From Antedon mediterranea (Eukaryota > Echinodermata > Crinoidea > Comatulida > Antedonidae): 64,000 nucleotides of DNA. The notes under the pieces are model-generated. The model was not told where the DNA came from. It saw nothing but the letters and a program-made list of their open reading frames with translations, and did no database searches. Below are positions 51,801-54,800 of the stretch, piece after piece. The translations under genes were made by a program, and so were the position numbers. The stretch spans positions 4,813,001 to 4,877,000 of the forward strand of contig NC_092680.1 of assembly GCF_964355755.1 (NCBI RefSeq), given 5' to 3'. Position 1 is the stretch's first letter. The number at the start of each line of letters is the position of its first letter.

Positions 51801-54800
51801 AAGGAACCATGACAAGTTATGGCAGTCAGAATTCGTTAAACTCAAATCATTCCTCCAATGCAGCTAACCAGAGCCAATTGATGGCAGCAGACAATCCAGA
51901 GCAATATGAGACATTAAAACAGCAAAAGGAAATCATTGAACAAGGAATTGAAATGTAGGTAGATGTTCAAATTTAGTAATTTGCATTGTTATTCCAATTA
52001 TTGGCAAAAGAGATTTAATGAACGATAAGTCTACATTCACACTAAAGCACCGTCTACACTATTAAATTTTATATGACAAAATAATGTGATGTGCCCAAAT
52101 ATGGACATGATGATGTCATATCACTATCATATTTGGGTATTTGGCTACACTATCAAACTAGTTTAATAGTGTAGACAGAAATTCTACTTATAATAAGCTA
52201 TGCTCCAGAGATTCCCCCTTTCCAATCTTGGTTTGTACTATGATTATTTATGCATGTTTATGATTTTGCGAATGAAAATGAAGAAAGAAGAAAGAAAAAA
52301 GAGCTTTAGACAGAAAATGGATTAATAATTATAGTTTTAAATGTTGACAAAGTGTTTGGTTCTTTTCATCAGATTTAATACTAAAAAAGCATCAAAAGGA
52401 ATACTGTATCTCCAAGAGCAAGGAATTCTGGGAAGAACGGCTGCTGATGTTGCTGCCTTCTTTCACGCAGATGAACGTTTAGACAAGGTTTGTACTAATT
52501 CATTTCTTATAATTTAATTATTTTTTTAATAATTTAATTATGATTTTATAATTTGTATTTGAAAAGAATTTTTACTTTTTGTTAATTTGATTGGATTTTT
52601 TTTTTTCACAGACTGTGATGGGAGATTATTTGGGTGAAAATGACAAGTAAGTTTTGCTTAAATTTAGATCAGTGTAAATTATTACAGTAGGGGATATCTT
52701 CAGAACCCAACAAATTGTTGAAAGTCATTTCTATCATTAATTTTTCATCCTAGATTTACCAAAGAAGTAATGTATGCTTATGTGGACCAAATGGACTTCG
52801 GTTCCAAGAACATTGTAGCAGCTTTAAGAGAATTCTTAGAAGGATTTCGTCTTCCTGGCGAAGCGCAGAAGATCGACAGAATGATGGAAAAGTTTGCGAG
52901 TCGTTACATTGAAAACAACGCAGATCAAAATATATTTGCGAGTGCTGATGCTGCTTACGTATTGGCGTACTCTATCATCCTGCTAACCACAGACTTGCAT
53001 AGTTCACAGGTGAAGATATGTTATAATAATTTGTATTTATTTTACCCCAGTTTAAAGCTCTGTTTACACTATCAAACTTTATGTGACAAAAAAAAGTGCC
53101 CATATATAGACATGATAATGTCATCTCACTACCATATTTGGGCACATCACACTTATTTTGTCAAACTAGTTTGATAGTGTAAATAGAGCTTTAGGCTCAA
53201 GATTAGTCCCTTTACATGCTCACATCAGTATCAGCATGTTTGTCTTTTTATTGAATCAGATAACATATTAACAAGTAGTTAATTGGAATAGTACGTAATT
53301 ATTTTTTGTTCAATTGAATATTCATTTTTTCTTGGTTTCCTTCATTTTAAAGGTTAAAAATAAAATGACAAAAGAACAATACATTAAGATGAATCGTGGT
53401 ATCAACGATAGCAAAGACCTGCCACCTGAGTATCTATCTGAAATCTATGATGAGATAGCAGATCAAGAAATACGAATGAAACAAACAACCTCTAGCAAAG
53501 TGACAACCAAAGCCTCATGTAAGTTACAACCGAAACATCATCTAAGTTACAAACAAGTCCTCATGTAAGTTAAAATCCAGGCCTCGTGTAAGTTAAAACC
53601 AAAGCCTTATACTGGTTACAACCAAAATCTTATGCCGGTTACAAACAAAACCTCATGTAAGTTAAAACCGAAGCTTTATACCGGTTAGAACCGAATACTC
53701 ATGCTGGTTACAACCGAAGCCTCATTTAAGTTACAACCGAATCCTCATGTAAGTTACAACTAAATACTCATGCCGATTACAACCGAATACTCATGCCCCT
53801 TACCAACAAAAACCTCATGTAAGTTAAAACCAAATACTCATGTAACCAAGTACTCATGTAAGTTACAACCAAAGTCTAATGCGAACAAACGAAACCTCCT
53901 GTAAGTTGAAAACAAGGCCTCATGTACGTTAAAACCAAATACTCATGTAAGTTATAACCGAATACTCACGTAAGTTAAAACCAAAGCCTCATGTAAGTTA
54001 CAACCGAAACTTCATGTATGTTAAAACCAAAGCCTCATGCCGGTTACAAACAAAACCTTGTAAGTTAAAACCAAAGCCTCATGCCGGTTACAACCGAATA
54101 GTCATGCCGGTTACAACCGAATGTAAGTTACAACCAAGGCAAAACAGTTTGGTTAAAACTTCAATAATAAACTACTGAGTGTCATTATTTCAGCATTAAC
54201 CAGTGAGAAACAAAGAAGAACGATGTTTACATTTGAGATGGATGCCATTGCTCAGACTGCTAAGAACCTAATGGAGGCCATCAGTCATGTACCATCTAAC
54301 TTCACTAGTGCATCACATCAGGAACATGTCCGACCAATGTTTAAGGTAGATTAACAAGATTTCTACTTTTGATTTGAACCACATTTATTACAGATTATAA
54401 CCCAGCATTAGTTTTGAGTGTTAAGATATTCAATTGGTAATTGCACCATACACCATGTTGCTATGGTTTTAGTAGGAGAGCATGATCTCTTTGTTTAAAA
54501 TCTTATGAGATACTTTTTTTAATGACCAATGACTCTATTAAGAGTAGGCACTATAGTCGTGCCACAGAAGCAACGGTTGATCTGTCATGTGGTTTTCTTT
54601 TATAAGAACAACCTTAGCCTTTTGTATATTAAACAAAACATTGTCGTACATTATTGGTAAAGATATTAATTAATTTTATCAAAAGAATAATTAAAATGAT
54701 GAATGTTTGGTTGACATAAACAATTATTTGTTATTTCCAGGTTGCATGGACACCTTTCCTGGCAGCATTCAGTGTAGGTCTTCAGGACTGTGATGATGCG

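Follow-up and report, generated by a model that had tools for sequence, protein, structure and literature searches.

How a spliceosome chooses among many equal donor sites is an old question, and it is raised by the ARFGEF gene of the crinoid Antedon mediterranea, in which a coding exon is followed by a long row of nearly identical donors. In the 64,000-nucleotide stretch analysed here (the window; NC_092680.1, positions 4,813,001–4,877,000, forward strand), the intron behind this exon is filled almost completely by a minisatellite of 23-bp units, many of which carry GTAAGT. We hold with considerable confidence that the donor itself seeded the array, i.e., that a random tandem duplication across the exon–intron junction was tolerated through use of the first donor, and that the array is most likely near-neutral.

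ARFGEF-like matches lie on the plus strand from about 40.6 kb to the end of the window. The gene is of the BIG type: the exon at 53353–53518 contains the last part of the Sec7 domain (Pfam E 5.9e-13, residues 1–40 of 55) and matches the Sec7 domain of BIG1 in the PDB (E 2.5e-17), with structures of both human BIG1 and BIG2 matched. Exons were placed with a human BIG1 sequence as guide. Joining 53518 to 54194 keeps the frame open and gave the best score among the donor–acceptor pairs tried; the host intron is 53519–54193, 675 bp, phase 1, with the acceptor exon starting at 54194. Its length is ordinary, since the introns placed in this gene range from about 150 to 1900 bp, and the array occupies approximately 92% of it. 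The features of the locus are as follows.

53353–53518, plus strand: ARFGEF exon, which extends 15 residues beyond the Sec7 match (Pfam, PDB, exon map)
53498–53518, plus strand: exonic part-unit coding KVTTKAS, in agreement with the array consensus at 20 of 21 bases (wraparound alignment)
53519–53524, plus strand: GTAAGT of the real 5' splice site (phase 1; position assigned from homology)
53519–54140, plus strand: 28 intronic units of about 23 bp (Tandem Repeats Finder (TRF), wraparound alignment)
53519, 53565, 53588, 53657, 53749, 53819, 53858, 53901, 53947, 53970, 53993, 54060 and 54123, plus strand: GTAAGT sites
53566–53568, plus strand: TAA in the exon's frame upon read-through into the intron
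53611–53818, plus strand: first cluster, of GCC-type units in which the donor is disabled (5, 6, 8, 9, 12 and 13, other units between; wraparound alignment)
54039–54122, plus strand: second cluster, of GCCGGT units (24, 26 and 27, one GTAAGT unit between; wraparound alignment)
54141–54193, plus strand: unrepeated intron tail with the acceptor AG at 54192–54193
54194–54345, plus strand: following ARFGEF exon (exon map)

TRF reports a period of 23 over 53498–54095 (26.5 copies, 70% matches), and wraparound alignment resolves a 21-base part-unit in the exon followed by 28 intronic units, some of them incomplete, up to 54140. A preliminary description of this DNA had placed the start of the array exactly on the intron GT. 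The donor GT is at 53519, and the array begins inside the exon, at 53498; the same description was right that the exon end is a near-perfect extra unit. The exon-tail 21-mer finds at best 15 of 21 bases elsewhere in the window. GTAAGT occurs exactly 13 times in the intron with the real donor counted, i.e., 12 further times downstream of it, in agreement with the earlier estimate of about 13. Eight sites including the real donor share CATGTAAGTTA at −3 to +8, so that seven later sites are identical to the real donor over these positions, and from the rest of the window only 0.12 sites of at least the real donor's strength are expected in 622 bases. ARFGEF thus has the layout of the donor-seeded variable number tandem repeats (VNTRs) in human ABCA7 intron 18 and F7 intron 7, with a first unit that holds the canonical donor, here placed by homology, and later units with intact donors.

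Since tandem repeats are error-prone in assemblies, an artefact has to be considered, and we regard it as highly improbable: the units differ from one another (mean pairwise identity 0.734), a 288-base query from the locus matched the genome (354 Mb, 18 contigs) only at this locus, in a search that skips common words, and similar loci are present on several contigs. A dispersed repeat family was also considered as the source of the array and was rejected, as all 12 of the 59 unit-pattern matches that have at most one mismatch lie inside this array.

Separately, inverted termini resembling those of miniature inverted-repeat transposable elements, AGTTTGATAGTGTARA, have 29 matches in the window (53063–53183 and 27 other matches) versus 2.5 expected, and several of them flank 21-bp tandem repeats in ARFGEF introns.

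The one U1 gene that was read in the genome begins ATACTTACCTG, which means that CAT/GTAAGT pairs with U1 at eight of the nine positions from −3 to +6 (by eye). Calculated U1 duplex energies place GTAAGT units above GCC units, a ranking that comes from generic parameters and is not used as support. The copy that starts ATACTTACCTG (L001) belongs, with L002, to a cluster of at least 42 U1 snRNA genes at C5:15664856–15752909, often 1.70 or 1.86 kb apart.

What would follow from use of a later donor can be read from the frame. All 14 downstream donors tested (12 GTAAGT, one GTACGT and one GTATGT) are non-productive: one shifts the frame and meets a stop about four codons past the junction, and the other 13 include the in-frame TAA at 53566. 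This bears out the preliminary description, which had noted the stop and predicted that any later donor would shift the frame or truncate the protein. With a unit length that three does not divide (23) and a TAA inside GTAAGT itself, a row of such units would tend to close every frame. The uniformly non-productive outcome, together with the seven sites identical to the real donor, is what would be expected of a regulated device in which a fixed fraction of transcripts is spliced from later units, is degraded by nonsense-mediated decay (NMD) and so tunes ARFGEF dose by unproductive splicing; in the ABCA7 VNTR, retention of one unit and an effect of VNTR length on splicing are described (PMC5954066). 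We nevertheless consider such a device unlikely, given the mean pairwise unit identity of 0.734, the nine units with one type of disabled donor, and the recurrence of the layout in functionally unrelated genes, two of which give open, in-frame read-through rather than NMD where they were read.

The disabled donors had suggested to the preliminary description, which spoke of many units reading GCCGGT, that selection may have silenced decoys. Exactly GCCGGT is found in four units, and nine of the 28 are of GCC type. Selection of these units for silencing draws on the extent of the change and on the diversity of the donor columns, which are fairly variable and rank 7th among the 23 six-column windows when all 28 units are counted. 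This rank is due to the GCC-type units, however, and once these are set aside the donor columns of the remaining 19 units show some of the lowest variability (rank 21 of 23), so that column diversity reveals no excess change at the donor outside the GCC-type units. Within the nine, C2 is present in nine, G4 in eight and C3 in seven (counted on aligned units), which fits a single subfamily spread by copying, and the positions of intact donors are evenly distributed over the array, with no shift (mean index 13.6 versus 13.5). Apart from the spread of one variant, these results together give no indication that decoys were selected against, and we judge decoy silencing to be very unlikely.

The same layout was found at other genes in this genome, listed here with the evidence for each exon.

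TDP2 (acceptor at 41209162 on C1): 31-bp unit, 27 GTAAGT in the array; exon tail DTNLRDSE, close to solved TDP2 (PDB E 1.4e-10)
HUWE1 (L018/L022; acceptor at 24970811 on C9): 30-bp unit, 3 donors in the array; exon tail LYNSIE (PDB E 1.1e-21)
Dihydropyrimidinase (L033/L042): 33-bp unit; exon tail DTHHH (PDB E 7.7e-9)
Ig-domain gene: 10-bp unit; exon identified by Pfam (E 9.4e-14)
PNPLA6/7-like gene: 20-bp unit, 26 copies; Pfam cNMP_binding in downstream open frames
SLC15: 19-bp unit; weak PDB match (E 0.27)
L013/L015, C1:1627469–1627924: probable donor in a possible polycystin-like gene; 40-bp unit, 11 copies; open frame only
L032: FN3-like by eye; open frame only, no Pfam match

The evidence for the PNPLA6/7-like gene and SLC15 is weaker than that for TDP2, HUWE1, dihydropyrimidinase and the Ig-domain gene. 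The PNPLA6/7-like exon itself has no Pfam match and no meaningful PDB match, and beyond the downstream cNMP_binding frames its identity is a tentative assignment; the SLC15 exon has no Pfam match, and its tentative assignment to SLC15 draws in part on the appearance of the next exon. For the Ig-domain gene, no next exon was identified. At L013/L015, 15 of 15 exon-tail bases are copied; its exons lack a Pfam match, and an open frame that lies about 2.5 kb downstream has a sub-threshold Polycystin_dom match.

In three of these genes the copy of the exon tail in the next unit is nearly complete (TDP2 22 of 23, HUWE1 19 of 19 and dihydropyrimidinase 13 of 14 bases, by eye), and the copied tails are conserved in solved relatives. 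Since these tails are conserved coding sequence, the exon was the template for the repeat in these genes, which strengthens the origin at the junction proposed in the preliminary description; slippage, which it had named as the process, would be a plausible route. Conversely, the ARFGEF array could have formed within the intron on its own and only afterwards have overwritten the exon end or come to resemble it by chance. This reading could draw on the ARFGEF exon tail, which lies beyond the conserved stretch, and on the PNPLA6/7-like, SLC15, Ig and FN3-like arrays, which start at the donor and copy hardly any of the exon or none of it; the direction from exon to array in TDP2, HUWE1 and dihydropyrimidinase argues against it, and we think it improbable.

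The consequences of read-through differ between these genes. In TDP2, splicing from any of the 26 later donors that were tested would take in a TGA at C1:41208091. HUWE1 is open and in frame on read-through and would add 10 residues per unit (VSPFLYNSIE), and dihydropyrimidinase, in the parts fetched, is likewise in frame and open, with 11 residues per unit (VSQFCFNTHHH). In these two genes, protein length isoforms are possible.

For ARFGEF we thus favour seeding by the donor, which may have proceeded as follows. A short tandem duplication would have spanned the exon end and the first bases of the intron, and repeated slippage or unequal exchange would then have spread copies of this segment (intron start plus exon tail), each bearing a donor, over nearly all of the intron. 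The protein would be kept because the most upstream donor, the sole productive one among those tested, probably serves most transcripts, and occasional use of a later donor would yield a frameshifted or stopped transcript that is presumably removed by NMD. A duplication at the junction leaves the exon and the first donor intact and puts the copies downstream, and such an array would therefore persist only while the first donor is spliced well enough. Use of the first donor fits exon definition.

Several points weigh against this account. Use of the first donor is inferred from the reading frame. Because the ARFGEF exon tail lies beyond the end of the PDB match, which covers residues 1–46 of the query, the direction from exon to array at this gene would follow from analogy with the other genes. 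The variability of the donor columns over all 28 units also counts here, and so does the genome-wide comparison, in which a bias for or against donors shows no consistent direction across flank patterns relative to the control.

In that comparison, triple-GTAAGT matches prove common, with 6953 genome-wide versus 6850 for a reversed-pattern control. Donor-array matches exceed the reversed control for AT (406 versus 163), AAG (85 versus 38), CAG (38 versus 8) and AGGTRAGT (454 versus 293), and fall below it for GAG (24 versus 111); a few long arrays dominate among the matches listed. A genome-wide hotspot of donor arrays was therefore rejected, as the plain pattern equals its control and the stricter patterns disagree in direction. 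Flanks were read for 33 donor-bearing arrays (L003–L010, L012, L013, L017–L021 and L024–L041; L011 is the second flank of the L012 array), namely those among the matches listed for flank patterns plus three of the five listed for triple GTAAGT (C1:678606 and C1:6484151 were left out). Kept within the 33 are L028 and L039 (no TRF array), L031 (one flank not reached), the near duplicates L036 and L037, and L008, whose anchor is a GTGAGT within a reading frame and which was not assigned. Six of these arrays start at a coding-exon donor with some database match and two more probably do so by open frame only; open frames at the first donors of L025 (no Pfam scan) and of L038, L040 and L041 (no Pfam match) were not credited. 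Within the ARFGEF gene span, ten sense-strand GTAAGT lie outside the array, three of which are placed donors and a fourth a poorly aligned candidate. With three to four in ten ordinary GTAAGT being donors or candidates, six to eight of 33 arrays is no evident excess over random seeding.

The preliminary description knew of no counterpart, a claim that falls because ABCA7 intron 18 is an almost exact one, and F7 intron 7 and IFI6 are published as well. In human ABCA7, 25-bp units directly flank the exon and their first GT serves as the canonical donor; the reference has 23.7 repetitions, splicing from the second unit breaks the frame, and canonical splicing is seen beside the one-unit product (PMC5954066). 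As in ARFGEF, the array stands at the donor of an exon; the ABCA7 unit, however, is C-rich, and isoforms and length effects have been demonstrated there. Of the donors in the 37-bp repeats of human F7 intron 7, splicing normally takes just the most upstream one, described as 'oriented scanning' (PMC6627357). With a weakened first donor, F7 is reported to switch to later units or to skip the exon. These repeats differ from ARFGEF in unit length, in their variable copy number and in the splicing experiments performed in the human gene, and first-donor use in A. mediterranea would fit this behaviour. Repeat units of the human IFI6 (6-16/G1P3) minisatellite act as alternative splice donors (PMC4526556). 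Later IFI6 units give protein isoforms, whereas at ARFGEF the 23-bp unit and the stop at 53566 leave later donors without open in-frame insertions; HUWE1 and dihydropyrimidinase, both open and in frame over the parts that were read, stand nearer to IFI6 than ARFGEF does. Internal tandem repeats at exon–intron boundaries also alter gene structure in human segmental duplications (PMC2812944). They share the boundary position with ARFGEF but produce novel introns in recent paralogues, whereas the ARFGEF array lies downstream of an existing donor. Our search of open-licence papers turned up none that describes several loci of this kind in a single genome, and the new part here is the recurrence within one other genome, with stop-containing and open in-frame versions both present.

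The best-supported genes place from 3 (HUWE1) to 27 (TDP2) GTAAGT in a row behind a coding exon, and with a single RNA sequencing data set from A. mediterranea the dependence of donor choice on position could be followed at several loci, with no need for engineered constructs. The layout suggests that tandem duplication across the end of an exon can be survived and provides a seed for intron growth. A wider reading, which we offer tentatively and regard as possible though doubtful, is that ARFGEF, TDP2, HUWE1, dihydropyrimidinase, the PNPLA6/7-like gene, SLC15 and others represent a recurrent class of donor-copying minisatellites at the exon ends of conserved genes; that length-variable arrays, some of them open in frame, could give inherited variation in isoforms and NMD load; and that 5'-to-3' order rather than donor strength may decide donor choice in this animal.

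Elsewhere in the window, long uninterrupted frames with Tudor domains lie at 5233–11628 (10 Tudor stretches) and 12273–14027 (two), and a 51-bp tandem repeat (17 codons, 5.7 copies) at 15654–15946 is contained within an open frame of 187 amino acids.
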